DNA from: Paenibacillus sp. FSL H8-0079
GTDB lineage: Bacteria > Bacillota > Bacilli > Paenibacillales > Paenibacillaceae
Length of the DNA stretch: 64,000 bases
Assembly (NCBI RefSeq): GCF_037991315.1
Contig: NZ_CP150300.1
Location: forward strand, 4,960,001 to 5,024,000
Reading direction: 5' to 3'
The notes under the pieces: generated by a model
Database searches by the model: none
What the model saw: the letters and a program-made list of their open reading frames with translations, nothing else
What the model was told of the DNA's origin: nothing
Program-made: the position numbers and the translations under genes
Part shown: one piece after another, positions 1,516 through 12,100 of the stretch
How the letters are laid out: every line of letters starts with the position of its first letter
How positions within the stretch are numbered: position 1 is the stretch's first letter

Positions 1516-1731
1516 ATGGCAAAGAAAGTCGTCGTCAATATTCATAAGCTCACGGAAAAACATAATATCTCGCTACGCGAACTGGCAAGATTGTCTGATA
1601 TCCGACACGCTGCGTTGAGTGAGTTGCAGTCTGGGAAGCGAGAGAATATTAACTTTGCTCACATTGAACGGATCGCAGAAGCTTTGGATATTGATGATAT
1701 AAAGGAAATTATTGAAATTAAAGATATTTAG
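1516..1731 (+). CDS. Small XRE/Cro-type HTH regulator (71 aa)
   Basis: The protein is essentially one helix-turn-helix domain of the lambda Cro/C1 type: a basic N-terminus, then LRELARLSDIRHAALSEL as helices 2-3, and a short acidic tail. Small stand-alone proteins of this kind occur next to mobile or accessory genes. The ATG follows AGGAGTGATTTAAC. It is divergent from the small helical gene and ends 47 bp before the convergent DNA methyltransferase, with no clear terminator between them. It probably binds the GGTAC-containing palindromes at 1425-1466. Whether it also influences the methyltransferase operon is unknown. Confidence 0.85.
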   Translation: MAKKVVVNIHKLTEKHNISLRELARLSDIRHAALSELQSGKRENINFAHIERIAEALDIDDIKEIIEIKDI

Positions 1732-1778
1732 TTGAAAAATACTGTGACTATTTTTAATGTAATCTCAAAAAACTCTGT

Positions 1779-3059
1779 TTATTTCACCTTATCGGCAGTA
1801 TTATATTCCAATCTAATTTTAAACCAATCTGCTAGTCTCTCAGCCATCAAAGGAGGAACTGCATTGCCGATTTGCACAAAATTAGAAGTCCTCGGCCCTT
1901 CAAAAAAATAATCATCTGGAAATGATTGGATTCTAGCTACTTCTCTAACAGTAAGAGAACGATTTTGCGTTATATCTGGGTGAATATAATGATGACCATC
2001 TTTTGATATATGAGCGACTACGGTATGAGAGTACTGTTCATCCCCAGCAACCACCTTAAATCTATCAAGAAATGAAGTAAGATTCTTGTGTGTAATCAAA
2101 TGCTCTGGTAGATCAGGGTATTTTAAACGACTCTTTTCTTTGTTCCACTTCTCTACTACAATATTATAAATATCTAAATCTCTTTGTACATTTGATCTAG
2201 CCTCATGATGTGTAAGAATATCTCTTGGACCTCTAATTTTCATTTCTTCCAACAAGTTATTAGGAGGAGATTTATAACAACTGTCTACAGTTGATTGTCC
2301 AGAAAAAAGTCTAGGAAGATCATTTATTAAGTCATTGACAATATGATTTTGAATTTGATTCTCGATTATTGGAAATTGATATTCAATATCCTTTCTCCAA
2401 CCAACAATAATAATTCTCTTTCTATCTTGAAGTACTCCAAAGTATTTCGCATTTAATTTCCGCGCTTCAATATTATAACCCACTCTTTTCATATAGGATT
2501 GTAAGTTCTTAAACAACGTTCCTTTAAACGCAGTCAAAATACCTGGGACATTTTCAAAGACAAACGCTTTAGGTTGATATCTTGTTAAGAATCTTACATA
2601 TAACTTATACAAGTAATTCCTAGGATCATCTTCCATGCTTTTCTCGTCTCTTGCTCTACCAACTAGTGAATAAGCTTGACAAGGAGGCCCACCAATAATT
2701 AGGTCTACACTATTCTGTTTCATATGAGCTAGTCTGTTATCAATCTTTTGAAATATTAATGGTAAAGTAGCTTCAGAAATTTCAAGATTCATTACAGGCT
2801 CCAACTCATCCTCAGGAACTAGAGATAAAAGTTTGCGCCTTTTTTCTTCCCTCTCACCACTAGTACTATAATAACTTTCTTGGTATTCTCTGTATAATTT
2901 CAAATTATTAGTTTTCTTCATATAATAGTATACTGACCTAGTCTCTAATGTTTTACACGCATAAGCATCTCGCTCAATATGTGCAATTGGTTCAAAACCT
3001 GTTCTTAAAAAACCTTCAGAAAGTCCTCCAGCACCTGAAAATATATCTAAAAAATTCAT
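1779..3059 (-). CDS. DNA (cytosine-5-)-methyltransferase (426 aa)
   Basis: Transfers a methyl group from S-adenosylmethionine to carbon 5 of cytosine in a DNA recognition site. All main motifs are present in order: motif I FSGAGGLSEGF near residue 8; motif IV GGPPCQAYS with catalytic Cys127; motif VI FENVPG; motif VIII QDRKRIIIVGW; motif IX SLTVREVARIQSFP; motif X QIGNAVPP. The stretch between motifs VIII and IX is the likely target-recognition domain; its specificity cannot be read. The ATG follows AAGGGGCGTTGTA. It is the last gene after the GHKL and receiver genes but has its own sigma-A-like promoter at 3097-3125. No restriction endonuclease or Vsr gene is recognisable beside it. Confidence 0.96.
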   Translation of the reverse strand: MNFLDIFSGAGGLSEGFLRTGFEPIAHIERDAYACKTLETRSVYYYMKKTNNLKLYREYQESYYSTSGEREEKRRKLLSLVPEDELEPVMNLEISEATLPLIFQKIDNRLAHMKQNSVDLIIGGPPCQAYSLVGRARDEKSMEDDPRNYLYKLYVRFLTRYQPKAFVFENVPGILTAFKGTLFKNLQSYMKRVGYNIEARKLNAKYFGVLQDRKRIIIVGWRKDIEYQFPIIENQIQNHIVNDLINDLPRLFSGQSTVDSCYKSPPNNLLEEMKIRGPRDILTHHEARSNVQRDLDIYNIVVEKWNKEKSRLKYPDLPEHLITHKNLTSFLDRFKVVAGDEQYSHTVVAHISKDGHHYIHPDITQNRSLTVREVARIQSFPDDYFFEGPRTSNFVQIGNAVPPLMAERLADWFKIRLEYNTADKVK

Positions 3060-3096
3060 TACAACGCCCCTTAGCTAACTCAATCTAAATATAAAA

Positions 3097-3125
3097 ATCA
3101 TACTAGGTTAGCAATGTATTGTAAA
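3097..3125 (-). promoter_or_regulatory. Internal promoter of the methyltransferase gene
   Basis: On the minus strand, TTTACA (3125-3120) and TATGAT (3102-3097) are separated by exactly 17 bases, a near-consensus sigma-A promoter. An inverted repeat GCTAAC/GTTAGC (3107-3112 and 3074-3079) brackets the -10 box and could be an operator or a leader hairpin. Confidence 0.6.
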
Positions 3126-3146
3126 CTATAAGACGAATGAATAAAT

Positions 3147-4670
3147 TCAATCCAACCTTATAATACCTACCCTAGAGATAAAGGTTGATAAGTAGTGTTT
3201 GATATCACTTAGAAATAATTCTCTAAATTCCAATAGAGGTTGAAGCGTAAACTCTCTATTTTGATCATTACTTATATGATGAAAACTAAAAACGATAATA
3301 CAAAGTTCATCATTTATTAATAACTCTGGTGTCGAATACAACGATTCCGGTAAACTTTTGGTACGTTTATTAAACTGATCTACTGGTACTTTGATCCCAA
3401 ATAAAATGCGCTTCCTTTTCAATTTATTTTGGGCGTAGTCGCACGAGGATGAGATATCCAATTTCACCAATCTAATTTGATCATCATTTATATCAACTTT
3501 ATCAAAAGTATGTAATACTATTTCTTCCTTAATCTCTTTATCATCCACTAAAAATAACTTACCTGGTTTCTTATTGTCATTTAGCAGTATTTTTTGGCAA
3601 AGTAGTTTAGAGTTAGAGAATCCTTGTGTACGCAAATATTTATTATGCATCTCCTCTATAATCTCTTTATCTTCATGTATCACAACGTTCTTATCAATGA
3701 TTTTTGAGTATGAAATAAAATCACGACCATTTTTTTTCAATACAAATTTACCTATCTTAGAAATTGAATATTCATTTTGATTGATTAGACAGGTAATACT
3801 AGAGCTAGTCATATGTTGGAATTCTTCATCATCAAAATGTATTAAGTGCATTTGATTCCATAACTCATCTGGAAGCATTTGATTTAAAGAAGCAAACGCA
3901 TTTGATATGTATTCAGCATTAGTAGTACTGGTCCCCAATATTTTTCCTGCATTAGCAATTGCCAATCGCTGAATTATATTCTGTACATTTTTATTCCAAT
4001 TATCTCCTTTGTCCGATAACATCGCTACACTATTGAGCAACATATTAGCGGCTTTCGAAACTGTATTTTCCCATACTAACAAAGAAGATAAAGCATTCAT
4101 TTCTTTTAGTTTTCCGTTCAGTTCAGTTAACAAATTATCGATAGGTACTTCTTCATGTTCACTAAAAGAAGGAACCATATTGAATATATCCATTATTTTT
4201 TCTTCAATAGTAGTATCATTTATACTTGATATAGTTGCTGCTAATTGATCACGAGCCTCATTATGACTATCTCTAATTAAACTTATAAAATCTTTTTTTT
4301 CTAAACTTGTTATTAAATACGGTTGTGGCACTTGCGGATATTCTTTTAGTTCCTCTTTAAATGATGCTAGATATTCATTATTATGTTTACTCCACATACA
4401 CAATATATATGGGCCATTTTCTAAGCTTATTGCACGTTTAAGTAAACTAAATAATGAACGGTTTATTATATGAGAATCAGTTACAGTGGAGAATCTCATG
4501 TCCAAAATAACAAGTCGCACACCATTCAGGGGTTCCTCTGGTTTATTTTTCAATTGTCCATCCCAAAATAAAGAATAAATTCCTTTAGTAGACAAAGCCT
4601 TCATTATAGGGAGTGCTTCTTCTATTTGATCGTCAATGATAATGACTTTATTAATAGCATTTAATTCCAA
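3147..4670 (-). CDS. Receiver-domain protein of the GHKL-methyltransferase operon (507 aa)
   Basis: Residues 1-130 read as a response-regulator receiver domain: acidic pair Asp13-Asp14, phospho-acceptor Asp57 in LVILDMRF, Ser94 after strand 4 and Lys125/126 after strand 5. The remaining ~375 residues match no output domain I recognise; there is no HTH. They contain SSCDYAQNK around Cys410, an ELCIIVFSFHH strand and a helical C-terminus. The start is TTG at 4670; its GGAGG site is formed by the last codons of the upstream gene, so translation is coupled. Position next to a histidine-kinase-like protein makes it the likely phosphorylation partner. The C-terminus may hold the effector. Function beyond that is unknown. 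Confidence 0.8.
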   Translation of the reverse strand: MELNAINKVIIIDDQIEEALPIMKALSTKGIYSLFWDGQLKNKPEEPLNGVRLVILDMRFSTVTDSHIINRSLFSLLKRAISLENGPYILCMWSKHNNEYLASFKEELKEYPQVPQPYLITSLEKKDFISLIRDSHNEARDQLAATISSINDTTIEEKIMDIFNMVPSFSEHEEVPIDNLLTELNGKLKEMNALSSLLVWENTVSKAANMLLNSVAMLSDKGDNWNKNVQNIIQRLAIANAGKILGTSTTNAEYISNAFASLNQMLPDELWNQMHLIHFDDEEFQHMTSSSITCLINQNEYSISKIGKFVLKKNGRDFISYSKIIDKNVVIHEDKEIIEEMHNKYLRTQGFSNSKLLCQKILLNDNKKPGKLFLVDDKEIKEEIVLHTFDKVDINDDQIRLVKLDISSSCDYAQNKLKRKRILFGIKVPVDQFNKRTKSLPESLYSTPELLINDELCIIVFSFHHISNDQNREFTLQPLLEFRELFLSDIKHYLSTFISRVGIIRLD

Positions 4671-4672
4671 TT

Positions 4673-6757
4673 TTATTCTTCCTCCTTGAATGCTAATGCA
4701 ATAATTGCACCATGCTTATACTCTAATGGTAATTCTAAATCATAATAATCTGGAAATATAATTTGACCACTATGTTGCTTCATAATTTCGCTAGCTAAGT
4801 GAAGTCCTAAACCCATTCCACCTGTTTTGTCAGTAATAAAAGGTTTGGTAATCATTTCTGTTGGTATGGTAAACCCTTTACCATTATCCGCTATAATAAT
4901 ACTTAGATAACCTGATATTTCTCTTGTTATATCAAAATAGATCTTTTTATTAGGGACTTCAACATAACTCAGCCACCAAATTGCGTTATCAATGATATTT
5001 ATTATATTACTTGTAATTAAATTTTCATTACCTTTTACGATAAAATCATCAGTTTTATTAAGATAATTCTCAACAACTTGAATTTCATGTGCTGCCAATC
5101 TGAAATCCACCAAAAATAATGCTTGACTAATTACATCTTTAAAATTGAATTTTTTCAAACGACCAGATTTAACAACTGAAGCATATCCATCTGTAAGACT
5201 CCCAAGTCTTTCCACTAATTTCCTGACATGCTGAGAAGTTTGATTTTCATCAATTACGCGCTCTAGTTCAGAAATAACTTTATCTATTTCATGTAAAACA
5301 ACGCTCATGCTTAAGCCTATGCTTGAACTTTTTTGGTAAACACCTGTAATATGTTGATAATCACGTTCAATGTTATCAAGGCATCCGAATATTTCATTTT
5401 TTAATGAATTGTCTGACACTTTCATTTCGATCTTTTCCCTTAACGAAGCAACCTCTGCAATTAATGGTTCAGATTTAGAGGTGGCACCATAATATTTTCT
5501 TATAAGATACTTATCTAATGCGCGGTCATGTTCAAATTTTTCAACAGCGAAAAGTACAGCATCTCTAAATTTTTCATATGCCAAATCCTCTATAAATCCT
5601 TCACGGTTAGTCTTCTCTTGTAAACCTAAACTTTGGCTACGCTCAATCTTTACACTTCCAAGTACTAGATTGGTACTAATTTTATCAGCTGGACTATTAA
5701 CTCTTTTGGCGTTTAATCCCAACCAATCACTCTCTTCTGAAGAGTAAATTCTAATTTTATCTCGATATACAAAAATACCACCGTTTGTTTTCAAATATTT
5801 CTTTAACCCTGAAGTGTCAGAAACTTCTCCAAATTTAAGTAAACTGGAGTCCAAATCAAACCCCAATAATTCAATCTCAATTGAACCAATATCATATTCA
5901 GATAAATCAATAGGAACAAACATTTTTTTAGTTTTTTTTCTATCATCTTTTAAGTTATCTAATTTTTTCATTTCAATCTCATCAATATGATTGTTTCTAT
6001 AATCCAATTTATCTAAGTTGTTCCAAGGTTTGAACTCATATTCATAGTTAAGAATTTTGTTTTTATCCAACGTCATCTTTACCTTAAATAATGCATAATC
6101 CTTAATATCATCATAACTTATTAAACCCTTTAACCATTCAGGATTGCTCACTTTCAAGTTCACTTTAAACGCATCTAATGCTTCAAATGGGGAGTTTAGT
6201 GAGGTTATTGCACGTTGTAAATCTCTCACTTTTCCTCTCGTCCACGGAGTTTTTAAATTTTCTATAATTATACGAGTGCCTTTGGGACTACCATTAGTAA
6301 ACAACTGAGTTGGGGGACGCTCAATGATATCAATAGACACATCTGATAAGTATTTATTAGAATCGAATATCGACCAATCAATACTTAAAAAAACCTCTTG
6401 TTCATTTTCGGAACGAGTTATCAATGTAACCTTATGTCCTAATTTATGAACCCCAAAACGTCCAATTCCCTTTTCACCCATAGGCAATCTGTTAAGTGAA
6501 CTTTTTATGTTTTCTTGTATCATTTTCTTTAATTTTTTCTCTTTATTATCTGTACCGGGTTCCATCCAGTAGTTTTTAACAATGTCGAGCGTCATTCCAT
6601 CTCCATCATCTTCGATAATTATCGTAGCAGATTGTAGATCGTCTGTATCTCTCATTATTACTTCAACATTTCTTGCATCAGCATCATAAGCGTTTTTAAT
6701 AAGTTCTAAGACTGCAATTGTCTCATCTTTAATTAACTGTTCACCTAATTGAGACAT
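4673..6757 (-). CDS. Double-ATPase GHKL protein: Hsp90/MORC-like N-terminus plus histidine-kinase C-terminus (694 aa)
   Basis: The N-terminal module is a GHKL ATPase of Hsp90/MutL/MORC type: N-box with Asn22 in ELIKNAYDADA, DxGxG at residues 50-54, and a GEKGIGRFG lid at 94-102. The middle is an S5-like transducer. The C-terminal module resembles a sensor kinase: H-box VVLHEIDKV with His489, then a second HATPase with Asn591 in IIDNAIWW, IADNGKGF around Asp624, and GGMGLGLHLA. There is no membrane segment, so it is cytosolic. It is first in an operon with the receiver protein and methyltransferase. The annotated ATG lacks a ribosome-binding site; a CTG at 6796 with AGAGGGG nine bases upstream would add the family-like segment FRPRARL. 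Related families (paraMORC) are known near restriction-modification genes. Confidence 0.85.
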   Translation of the reverse strand: MSQLGEQLIKDETIAVLELIKNAYDADARNVEVIMRDTDDLQSATIIIEDDGDGMTLDIVKNYWMEPGTDNKEKKLKKMIQENIKSSLNRLPMGEKGIGRFGVHKLGHKVTLITRSENEQEVFLSIDWSIFDSNKYLSDVSIDIIERPPTQLFTNGSPKGTRIIIENLKTPWTRGKVRDLQRAITSLNSPFEALDAFKVNLKVSNPEWLKGLISYDDIKDYALFKVKMTLDKNKILNYEYEFKPWNNLDKLDYRNNHIDEIEMKKLDNLKDDRKKTKKMFVPIDLSEYDIGSIEIELLGFDLDSSLLKFGEVSDTSGLKKYLKTNGGIFVYRDKIRIYSSEESDWLGLNAKRVNSPADKISTNLVLGSVKIERSQSLGLQEKTNREGFIEDLAYEKFRDAVLFAVEKFEHDRALDKYLIRKYYGATSKSEPLIAEVASLREKIEMKVSDNSLKNEIFGCLDNIERDYQHITGVYQKSSSIGLSMSVVLHEIDKVISELERVIDENQTSQHVRKLVERLGSLTDGYASVVKSGRLKKFNFKDVISQALFLVDFRLAAHEIQVVENYLNKTDDFIVKGNENLITSNIINIIDNAIWWLSYVEVPNKKIYFDITREISGYLSIIIADNGKGFTIPTEMITKPFITDKTGGMGLGLHLASEIMKQHSGQIIFPDYYDLELPLEYKHGAIIALAFKEEE

Positions 6758-6923
6758 TAATCTTGCTCTAGGCCTAAATACAGCTTGATTAGTCAGGTTA
6801 ATGCACCCCTCTCATTTTTATTAAGTATCAAAGATCTCAAATTTAAATATATTAATCGCCGATGTTCATCCAATCCTCTTTCCTCTCATAAACCGTTTTG
6901 TTATATCTTATGGCGCTAGGTAT

Positions 6924-6929
6924 ATTCTA
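6924..6929 (-). promoter_or_regulatory. Candidate extended -10 promoter of the GHKL operon
   Basis: The 330-base gap 6797-7127 has no gene. On the minus strand it contains TGGTAGAAT, an extended -10 box at 6924-6929, giving a leader of roughly 120 bases. No clear -35 box precedes it. The rest of the gap is A+T-rich sequence without recognisable features. Confidence 0.4.
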
Positions 6930-7203
6930 CCATACAAAATAAATTCGCTGCATTTTTTCTAAGTGAAAATAGATATTTATGTTTGCCTGATTTACGAGCA
7001 AATAGTATCACTAAAAAAATAGTAAATTGGATACTGAGAAGGGCCACAATTTATCTAGAAAGCATGTATCAATTATTAGAAATATATTTCTAGGGTTTTA
7101 TTAAAAAGAACAGCTACTTGGTATTATCCTCTTTTAATAGACAAGAAAAAAAAAGACATCTGTTAAGATGGACTTAATCTTGCCTACTGGAGGGGATTTT
7201 TTT

Positions 7204-7501
7204 ATGGCTAAAAAAGGACAAGCTTTCTGACGGTACTCCTCAGAATTAAAATTGGAGGCGGCCGGCTGGTCAACGAAGAGCATATGAGCATACGTGAAGT
7301 CGCGAAACGTTTGGGTATTCAAAATAAATCTCAGGTAAAGTATGGGCTGCGAAAATGAAACACGGAGTGAGTTTTGAACCTGCCACATCTAAACGAGGAC
7401 GTTCTAAAACGAAGTTTTCCAGTATGGAAGAAGAAATGGCTTACTTGCGAGCGGAGATTGAATATTTAAAAAAGCATTATCCAAATCTACACAAGGAGTG
7501 A
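7204..7501 (+). pseudogene. IS3 orfA remnant (HTH transposase subunit)
   Basis: Starts ATGGCTAAAAAAGGACAAGC after a GGAGGGG site, then hits a TGA after eight codons. Further fragments in shifting frames read RYSSELKLEA, EEHMSIREVAKRLGIQNK and MEEEMAYLRAEIEYLKKH, the helix-turn-helix and leucine-zipper parts of an IS3 OrfA. At least one nonsense change and one frameshift are needed to restore it. It ends at the TGA overlapping the orfB start. Confidence 0.8.
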
Positions 7502-8359
7502 CGAGTAAAGCTGCCAGATTTCAGATTGTAGAGGACTTGCGAGTACGTCATGATTGGCTTGGCTCGAAGTTTGCTGCGGTTTCCCGTTCGGGCTATTATA
7601 AGTGGAGAAAAAGTAGACAGGCGAAAAGTGAACGTAGACAAAAAGAACATGAATTGGAATCGCATCTGCTTGCCATTCATCGAGTTTATCCCTACTTTGG
7701 TTATCTTCAAATGACAGTGGCTTTACATAGAGAAGAGTTAGGAGTTAATCACACAAAGGTGTATCGAGTAATGAAACAATTAAGGTTTTGTTCTGTTATT
7801 CGAAGAAAGCGTCGATTCTTTGGGAAACAAGCTTCTGTAGTGAATCCAAATCGACTGGAACGCCAGTTTCAAGCAAGTTCACCACGAACTAAACTGGTTA
7901 CAGACATCACCTATATCCGCGCTGGAGAACAGTTTGTGTACCTATCTGTCATTCAGGATTTATATAATAATGAAATTTTGGATGGCCATCTTTCCGAACG
8001 AAATGATCTTGCTTTAGTTCATGAAACGCTGGATAGATTCTGTCAGCACACGGATCTGAGTGGCGTACTCCTGCACTCCAGTCAAGGATTTCAATAAACC
8101 TCTAAACCAGTCAACCGTAAACTGAAACAACTCAGTATGCTAGGAAGTCACTCCAGGCGGGAATTGCCTAGACAATGCCTGTATCAAATCTTTCTTCTCT
8201 CAATTAAAGACCGAAAAAATATACTTGAATGAGGCAGCAAACAAAGAGGAGGTTGAGCAGAAAGTGAGCGAATATATTCTATTCGATACCCACAACCGAT
8301 ACCAAAAAAGACTAAACGACCGTTCCCCGGTGGAATACCGGGAAAAGACCGCGGCTTAA
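7498..8359 (+). pseudogene. IS3 orfB transposase, inactivated
   Basis: The first 199 residues are a recognisable DDE integrase-type transposase N-terminus, with the first catalytic Asp in VTDITYI. The second catalytic site reads HSSQGFQ followed by a stop where HSDQGFQY is expected, so the Asp and the next Tyr codon are both lost. After a further frameshift the C-terminus continues as GNCLDNACIKSFFSQLKTE, where Lys replaces the third catalytic Glu. The original frame would have ended at the TAA at 8357-8359. Several independent hits imply an old insertion. Confidence 0.88.
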
Positions 8360-8421
8360 AATCGTCTTTTTTTACTGTCTACTTGACAGGGTTATGACCA
8401 ACTAGAGCTGTTTTTTTAATA

Positions 8422-9222
8422 TTAGTTCGATTTTACATCTTTAACATTATAATTAAGGTAAAACCGCCACGTTTCACTATCCATATATATCCAAGTTTTC
8501 ATTCTGCCATTTAGTTCATCACCACAATCAGAAAACTTTATATCCTTAATTTTCTGAAAAGTTATAGGCCACTCTTCCCCGTTCCTTTCCAAATTTAATG
8601 AGAAATATTTGTATGCATTTGAAATATCGTAATCAACTAAGCGGTATATATCTCTACCAGTTTCCTTTCCTACACGTCCATTTGTGATACCTATTTGAAT
8701 GCTTCCTTTTTTTGTCGCATCCAGAAGTCGATCTAGAAAATTATAGTAATCTTCAAGAGCCTCCTCCTGTTCCAATTTTCTCAATTCCCTCTGGTGCTCT
8801 TCTTCTAATTTATGATAGTGATTAGATACCAGCCGATTCAATATAAACCTAACTCTACTAGAATCATATCCCGCTTCCTCAAAAAGTTTCTCATACAAAG
8901 GTAGTTTTATTTTCACAGAACGATCTCGCTCATTCCAATTCTTTTTAAAATCGTTAATAACTTCGGCAAGTGGTCCTGACTTTATTGCTTCATCATTCTC
9001 TATATCAAATTCGGAATCTCTTCCATATAGGTAATCCAATGAGACACGATAAAATGTCGCTAGCTTACTAAGCATTTCAGCAGATGGTTCCCTATTTCCT
9101 GCTTCCCAATTGGAGTAAGTGCTATAATTAATATTAAGTTTTTCTACTACCTCTGCTTTTTCAATTTTTTTATTTTCTCTAATTTCCTTAAGACGCATTC
9201 CAATAATAGATTTTTGATCCAT
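8422..9222 (-). CDS. XRE-family HTH protein with long C-terminal domain (266 aa)
   Basis: Residues 7-70 are a Cro/C1 helix-turn-helix (RLKEIRENKK, then NYSTYSNWEAGNREPS and LATFYRVSLDYLYG). Residues ~70-180 are strongly charged with a predicted coiled coil (around HKLEEEHQRELRKLEQEE); the last ~80 residues are of unknown type. Larger than a plain phage repressor, so it may have a sensory or protein-binding part. Its start is ATG at 9222 with a GGGGG stretch upstream. Palindromes at 9235-9251 and 9284-9304 lie in its promoter region and may be its own operators, although a TetR gene lies just beyond. It borders the accessory island and is A+T-rich like it. Confidence 0.8.
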   Translation of the reverse strand: MDQKSIIGMRLKEIRENKKIEKAEVVEKLNINYSTYSNWEAGNREPSAEMLSKLATFYRVSLDYLYGRDSEFDIENDEAIKSGPLAEVINDFKKNWNERDRSVKIKLPLYEKLFEEAGYDSSRVRFILNRLVSNHYHKLEEEHQRELRKLEQEEALEDYYNFLDRLLDATKKGSIQIGITNGRVGKETGRDIYRLVDYDISNAYKYFSLNLERNGEEWPITFQKIKDIKFSDCGDELNGRMKTWIYMDSETWRFYLNYNVKDVKSN

Positions 9223-9234
9223 TTAAGAACCCCC

Positions 9235-9304
9235 ATTCATTCATAATGAATAAAAATTAAACAAATTATATTTTTTTCCCCAAAATGAATTATAAATGAT
9301 TCAT
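9235..9304. promoter_or_regulatory. ATTCAT/ATGAAT palindromes between XRE and TetR genes
   Basis: Two inverted repeats occur: ATTCAT-N5-ATGAAT at 9235-9251 and AATGAAT-N8-ATTCAT at 9284-9304. A matching AATGAAT-N5-ATTCATT occurs at 10388-10406. The whole 9223-9661 gap otherwise holds no gene, only A+T-rich promoter-like sequence. Confidence 0.45.
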
Positions 9305-9661
9305 ATTGAGTTTTCAATCATAAAACCCAAAAAAGCATTTTTCTCTTTATTTCTGCTAAACAACTGAAGTTATTGCATTTATTTCAGGTCAAAAAACCTT
9401 GCTATATATTGTTGAATCATCTAACTCATAAGAAACAGTAGAACTAGCTTAATACATATTTTCTCTATCTAGCTTCTTCAGTTCATCCTTTTAGTACCAC
9501 AAAAAGAATATGTGAATAAAGATAATTCACTATCTTTTCAAAAAAATTCCAACATCATAATGAGCTCAGTGATATTCCCCTATCCCCTTTACATTGACAA
9601 ACTCAAAAAAAACTCTAACCTAATAACGAATCATCCATTCACTAATAAGGAGTCGTTCACG

Positions 9662-12078: not shown

Positions 12079-12100
12079 ATGGGACACTCTCCTGTTAAGA

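Follow-up and report, generated by a model that had tools for sequence, protein, structure and literature searches.

A methyltransferase-linked kinase/receiver cassette of Paenibacillus as a candidate phosphorelay defence with a predicted toxin-like output

What could a histidine-kinase-like protein and a receiver protein accomplish in series with a DNA methyltransferase? This question is raised by a 64,000-nucleotide stretch of DNA from Paenibacillus sp. FSL H8-0079 (hereafter the window), the minus strand of which encodes in succession a GHKL kinase-like protein, a receiver protein and a C5-cytosine DNA methyltransferase (Table 1). A sequence-only reading of the locus had proposed, as a candidate, an undescribed modification or defence system in which phosphotransfer controls an effector in the receiver C-terminus. 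The three genes and their motifs are real, and this interpretation as a whole is supported in part. The reading favoured here, to which we give about an even chance, is that methylation is linked to a phosphorelay defence whose effector is toxin-like; the cassette would most likely be mobile and directed against phages. Its computed basis consists of intact genes, conserved relay residues, a link to methyltransferases, variable outputs, a mobile location and a predicted toxin fold.

The kinase-like protein unites HATPase_c_3, a histidine-bearing helix and HATPase_c in a single polypeptide. It was aligned with sequences from Paenibacillus, from proteobacterial, Hymenobacter and Campylobacter plasmids and from virus records (alignment A4, 16 sequences including the window), while the receiver alignment (A6) comprises 18 sequences, again including the window; L023 and L026 are near-identical within these alignments. 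Glu31, Asn35, Asp63, Gly65, Gly67 and the GxKGxGR residues of the N-terminal ATPase are invariant throughout A4, and the same holds for the N, G1 and G2 residues in the C-terminal kinase domain. Because all checked motif residues are thus retained, both ATPase modules look intact. His502, numbered His489 in the sequence-only reading, is likewise invariant. On the receiver side, Asp13, Asp57 and Lys125 occur in all 18 sequences, position 94 is always Ser or Thr, and Asp14 is kept in 15 and replaced by Asn in the other three. Lys126, which had been listed alongside these residues, is not conserved. Variation of the histidine or of Asp57 among homologues had been named beforehand as an observation that would speak against the proposal; neither residue varies, and the phosphorelay-like character of the pair is upheld.

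The output of such a relay would lie in the receiver C-terminus. As a whole, the receiver protein matches no Pfam family at an expectation value (E) of ≤ 1 or ≤ 10 and no NCBIfam or PADLOC family at E ≤ 1. Gly370, Cys410-Asp411, Gln414, Arg483, Arg500 and Gly502 are conserved in its C-terminal domain; A6 misaligns the stretch before Cys410 between Paenibacillus and the remaining sequences, and the domain was recut from hand-chosen starts for a further alignment (A7). Structure prediction followed by fold comparison assigns residues 360-507 a CcdB/MazF fold, which lends model-based support to the effector-like domain proposed earlier. The nuclease or NADase that was suspected to be hidden in this protein did not emerge from the Pfam, NCBIfam and PADLOC scans, nor does such a fold occur among the matches listed.

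The methyltransferase gene encodes a complete enzyme with a Pfam DNA_methylase match (E 4.4e-60) and the motifs PPCQA, ENV and QIGNAVPP. Its association with the kinase is conserved: among 53 virus-contig loci, 51 contain a full-length kinase open reading frame (ORF; those of L044 and L070 are short), and 46 of these 51 are accompanied by a methyltransferase within 3 kb and a coupled downstream ORF. By profiles built from the same 53 loci, the downstream protein belongs to the window's receiver group in 16 cases, to two related fused groups in 6 and 5 cases (weakly for L056 and L058) and to none of these groups in 21, with the downstream ORF absent in the remaining 5. Receiver-only loci are followed by a gene for an HNH protein (Pfam in L062 and L063, the PADLOC PtuA/PtuB models in L060), a metallo-beta-lactamase (Pfam in L053, PADLOC in L054) or a protein that appears CHAT/caspase-like by eye (L020, L065 and L069), a label for which Pfam and PADLOC (L020, L065) or PADLOC (L069) gave nothing decisive. 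A fused DUF4145/HepT-like stretch occurs in L077 with a score under the cut-off, and the second genes of L066, L078 and L080 obtained no identity from the scans. PF00072 was detected in six of ten receiver-position proteins scanned (L053, L060, L065, L069, L072 and L075, only L065 above cut-off) and was absent from L062, L066, L073 and L077.

Fixed sensor parts combined with changing methyltransferases and outputs are a pattern of established immune families. Tentatively, the cassette may belong to an unrecognised modular defence superfamily. Its members would combine a methyltransferase with a MORC-clamp histidine kinase as the reader of DNA methylation, a receiver and an exchangeable killer, the last being either fused (CcdB/MazF-like or HEPN-like) or encoded separately (HNH, metallo-beta-lactamase or CHAT-like). 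Alternatively, the kinase/receiver pair could be a regulatory add-on to ordinary restriction-modification that tunes a separate nuclease and the methyltransferase, with a C-terminal domain that binds DNA or protein and is no toxin. We regard this as rather unlikely, given that no nuclease gene was seen beside the three genes in the ORF lists of the window, L005, L007, L023 and L026 (most flanking ORFs there were not profile-scanned), and that an HNH or metallo-beta-lactamase gene accompanies some of the receiver-only versions.

Several relatives show arrangements of their own. L066, L073, L074, L076 and L080 encode an Eco57I-like methyltransferase (called by Pfam in L076, by similarity in L066, L073 and L080 and by profile in L074), a kinase, a receiver-position protein of 360-372 amino acids and a second gene product of 242-262 amino acids; Pfam gave no match for the first gene in L066 and L073 or for the second in L066 and L080. 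On a Stenotrophomonas plasmid (L020, 11770-13101), methyltransferase, kinase and receiver genes precede the CHAT/caspase-like gene and, on the opposite strand, a gene that is SIR2-like by eye only. The kinase gene of L070 (6989-10972) is interrupted by an opposite-strand ORF of 494 amino acids, probably an insertion. In L055 (5825-9238), the kinase protein measures 1137 amino acids and its N-terminus weakly matches EcoRII-N (E 3.3e-4, below cut-off), which hints at a possible fused DNA-reading domain in some kinases.

A direct role in DNA cleavage would be another conceivable function. As an ATP-dependent restriction enzyme of two subunits, the pair would loop DNA with its MORC-like ATPase and cut it with the receiver protein, while methylation would protect self. 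In line with this, the kinase N-terminus resembles the BbrUII/HgiDII restriction family (NCBIfam, 77.4 bits, residues 16-212) and a generic PADLOC type II restriction model (residues 16-182, E 3.7e-9), and MORC-like proteins occur in restriction-modification operons according to the accessible part of Iyer et al. 2008 (PMC2292703). However, the BbrUII match covers the ATPase part only, far below the 550-bit cut-off and thus not at full length, and family scans (Pfam, NCBIfam, PADLOC) revealed no nuclease domain in the kinase-like or the receiver protein, nor does one appear among the receiver fold matches listed. A restriction enzyme of this kind is therefore quite improbable. The PADLOC check suggested by the sequence-only reading returned no named system: besides the type II restriction model, it yielded methyltransferase models, a weak TmtA match to the kinase protein (E 0.0014) and nothing for the receiver protein.

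The mobile location is apparent from the surroundings. The cassette occupies a variable chromosomal slot, as in three relatives the left flank stops at 1408-1730 and the right flank restarts at 9583-9594. Three genomes of the same genus keep both flanks with different cargo, namely AAA_21 (L090), TIR_2 plus ThsB_TIR (L091) and a weak nSTAND3 match (L092); in L091, the TIR_2 and ThsB-like TIR genes fill the equivalent slot at 1792-6925. In a genome of the same species (G294, L093), the left flank is retained up to base 1730 and the match restarts at 12096, with other ORFs. The G+C fraction amounts to about 0.31 over bases 2001-6000 compared to 0.40-0.50 in most of the window. The cassette is separated from an HTH gene (8422-9222) by a transposase remnant at 7134-8400, IS3-type by eye, with HTH_21 and rve matches at 7498-8097. 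L023 and L026 are prophage loci, and in L023 the cassette directly follows the P2 GpU and GPD tail genes. Further relatives come from virus contigs or plasmids, and many of the plasmids are predicted to be conjugative. The window receiver itself has no sequence homologue on plasmids, phages or, with a single-protein query, virus contigs, its homologues being reached only via kinase matches and alignments. The receiver gene was detected in 4 of 392 genomes of the window's own order, its own included; a scan of genome contigs found three Paenibacillus loci and, since it used two N-terminal patterns, is no measure of spread. The source genome is complete (6.7 Mb), and the closest named loci are from Paenibacillus; a weak match to G081 (67 residues, E 5e-4) was discarded.

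Such mobility would also suit an addiction module of a mobile element, in which the methyltransferase is the antidote, loss of methylation triggers a receiver-borne toxin and phage defence is a side effect. The plasmid and virus-contig locations, the toxin-like predicted fold and the presence of a methyltransferase no more than 3 kb away in 46 of 51 cases point in this direction. Against it, the slot occupied by the window copy is chromosomal and contains defence-type genes in relatives, and no plasmid or phage backbone was identified there. We consider this alternative improbable.

For the favoured phosphorelay defence, the following sequence of events is proposed. The methyltransferase would modify the host's own DNA, while the kinase, with its MORC-like ATPase clamp as sensor, would monitor DNA or another infection cue. 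On triggering, the kinase may autophosphorylate at His502, from where the phosphate would move on to Asp57 in the receiver, as suggested by the conserved residues. Phosphorylation could then free or dimerise the C-terminal domain with its predicted CcdB/MazF-like fold, which would keep the infected cell from growing, whether by attacking gyrase as CcdB does, by cleaving RNA as MazF does or by acting on another target. Phosphotransfer, sensing of the DNA state, toxicity and phage defence are thus the conditional elements of this scheme.

Several points weigh against it. Toxin-family profiles match none of the 18 receiver members, a PDB profile search found no MazF or CcdB for the C-terminal domain, hhalign of this domain against eight closely related MazF sequences gave a probability of 0.1%, and neither library gave a Foldseek match with E ≤ 0.001; likeness of a predicted fold to MazF/CcdB does not establish activity. 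The effector role of the receiver-only and fused outputs is deduced from gene position, and the CHAT-like calls were made by eye. As to the methyltransferase count, the non-C5 profiles behind 18 of the 46 cases derive from the very loci being counted, and the C5 profile, which gives the other 28 of 51, has 2 of its 10 seeds (L023 and L024) on counted contigs. Moreover, L014, L015 and L018 adjoin annotated restriction genes and therefore fit a restriction role. Finally, among the matches listed, a literature search that left most subscription journals and preprints outside yielded no published test of any family member.

On the superfamily reading, restriction-modification would shift from direct DNA cutting to phosphorelay-triggered cell arrest. 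If the proposal holds, epigenetic self-marking would be tied to abortive infection via a classical His-Asp relay, and MORC-like ATPases would gain a testable sensor role. A further literature search of the same coverage did not find the combination of a response regulator with an output of CcdB/MazF fold in print. A toxin-fold output predicts that the freed C-terminal domain stops growth and that blocking His502 or Asp57 prevents triggering.

With regard to gene structure, an AAGGAGG sequence precedes the TTG codon of the receiver gene, and 87 nt separate the latter from the methyltransferase gene. Together with a promoter-like site, this gap would allow the methyltransferase its own transcript, independent of the relay, but the grounds are weak, as such sites are no commoner than in shuffles (27 in the region versus a mean of 29.3). 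The upstream end given for the kinase gene in the sequence-only reading implies a CTG start that adds 13 residues before the first ATG. This start is plausible, if unproven, because Pro9 and Arg12 within the extension are conserved in at least 90% of the 16 aligned kinase sequences and the equivalent residues come after an ATG in L005, L006 and L007.

Table 1. Features of the cassette and its slot in window coordinates.
Feature	Position	Strand	Details
GHKL kinase-like protein	4673..6796	-	707 amino acids from CTG 6796; 694 from ATG 6757
N-terminal HATPase_c_3 (MORC/Hsp90-like) ATPase domain	6320..6718	-	residues 27-159, Pfam E 9e-19
His502, predicted phospho-acceptor	5291..5293	-	invariant 16/16; Glu503 next in 15/16
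C-terminal HATPase_c kinase domain	4754..5026	-	residues 591-681, Pfam E 2.6e-15
Receiver protein	3147..4670	-	507 amino acids, TTG start, 2 nt past kinase stop
Receiver domain	4281..4670	-	residues ~1-130: Asp13, Asp14, Asp57, Ser94, Lys125
Asp57, predicted phospho-acceptor	4500..4502	-	invariant 18/18
C-terminal domain, predicted CcdB/MazF toxin fold	3150..3593	-	residues 360-507
Promoter-like site TTTACA-17-TATGAT	3097..3125	-	upstream of methyltransferase; 10/12 matches; weak
C5-cytosine DNA methyltransferase	1779..3059	-	426 amino acids, ATG start; catalytic motifs found
Variable chromosomal slot with cassette	1731..9590 (approximate)		flank comparison with relatives

How, then, does the cassette relate to known systems? 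In Detocs, a kinase-to-receiver relay is proposed to fire an effector. The window cassette, with its putative defence role, likewise has adjacent genes for a kinase and a receiver within a single operon. It differs from this family of three-gene systems, the best-described member of which uses an ATP-cleaving PNP effector (PMC11249213, in the part available), by its methyltransferase and by the absence of any PNP family in Pfam, NCBIfam and PADLOC scans. CcdB/MazF (PemK-like) toxins resemble the C-terminal domain in predicted fold, yet a sequence-level match is missing, the domain is fused to a receiver, and no antitoxin gene was seen adjoining the receiver gene in the ORF list. The DISARM gene set places a helicase and partner genes next to a methyltransferase. 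The window methyltransferase matches the DISARM DrmMII model (PADLOC PDLC02649, E 1.5e-167), but its slot lacks a helicase partner, because no ORF of at least 300 amino acids other than the three cassette genes lies in 1731-9590. With paraMORC proteins, the kinase shares an N-terminal GHKL ATPase in restriction-modification neighbourhoods; as far as the accessible text of PMC2292703 goes, those proteins carry C-terminal nuclease or TIR additions, and the words 'receiver' and 'two-component' are absent. In paraMORC3/Shedu, a DUF4263 nuclease follows the GHKL domain, whereas the window kinase has no such Pfam match at E ≤ 1. A gene annotated ParaMORC3 adjoins one annotated Dcm in Escherichia phage PhiR44_1 (L028, 7968-11016).

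The arrangement as such is not undescribed. Proteins with HATPase_c_3, HEF_HK and HATPase_c encoded beside Response_reg_2 proteins and C5 methyltransferases were reported from hundreds of genomes (Bellieny-Rabelo, Pretorius & Moleleki 2021, PMC8011034). Common to both are the two ATPase modules flanking a His-bearing helix region, an adjoining receiver-like gene with an Asp pair, Asp, Ser/Thr (Thr in theirs) and Lys, and a C5 methyltransferase close by. In the portion of that paper at hand, the receiver-like proteins have no further known domain, neither a toxin fold nor swappable effectors nor prophage cassettes are described, and toxin-antitoxin domains appear only as neighbours; the words 'prophage' and 'HEPN' are absent from its text. 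Since that account is, in the same portion, computational and assigns no tested function, leaving open the role of the restriction-modification-linked pairs, the gene pairing is already described but of an uncharacterised kind.

Unlike the reported pairs, the window proteins match neither PF19191 nor PF19192. PF19192 has no match anywhere in the window's own genome or, at E ≤ 1, in any of the 26 receiver proteins scanned with Pfam, the window's included. A scan of 398 Bacillota genomes gave zero matches but also missed the 14 controls and is therefore no evidence of absence. At E ≤ 10, PF19192 occurs in 4 of 36 records behind the relatives, namely in the receiver genes of L056 (27.1 bits, above cut-off), L049 and L067 (both under cut-off), with one stray match in the L020 plasmid. 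In hhalign profile comparisons, the window's group of receivers is tied to that of L047/L049 over the receiver and helical part (probability 97), but no such tie exists with L056/L058 (2.6). When C-terminal domains are compared, those of the other fused groups match one another in two out of three pairings (96, 96 and 16) and the window's domain only weakly (53 and 68). Taken together, the missing PF19191 and PF19192 matches in the window, the PF19192 matches in L056, L049 and L067 and the tie to the L047/L049 group place the cassette, as judged from sequence, as a divergent relative of the HEF_HK/Response_reg_2 pairs rather than as a member.

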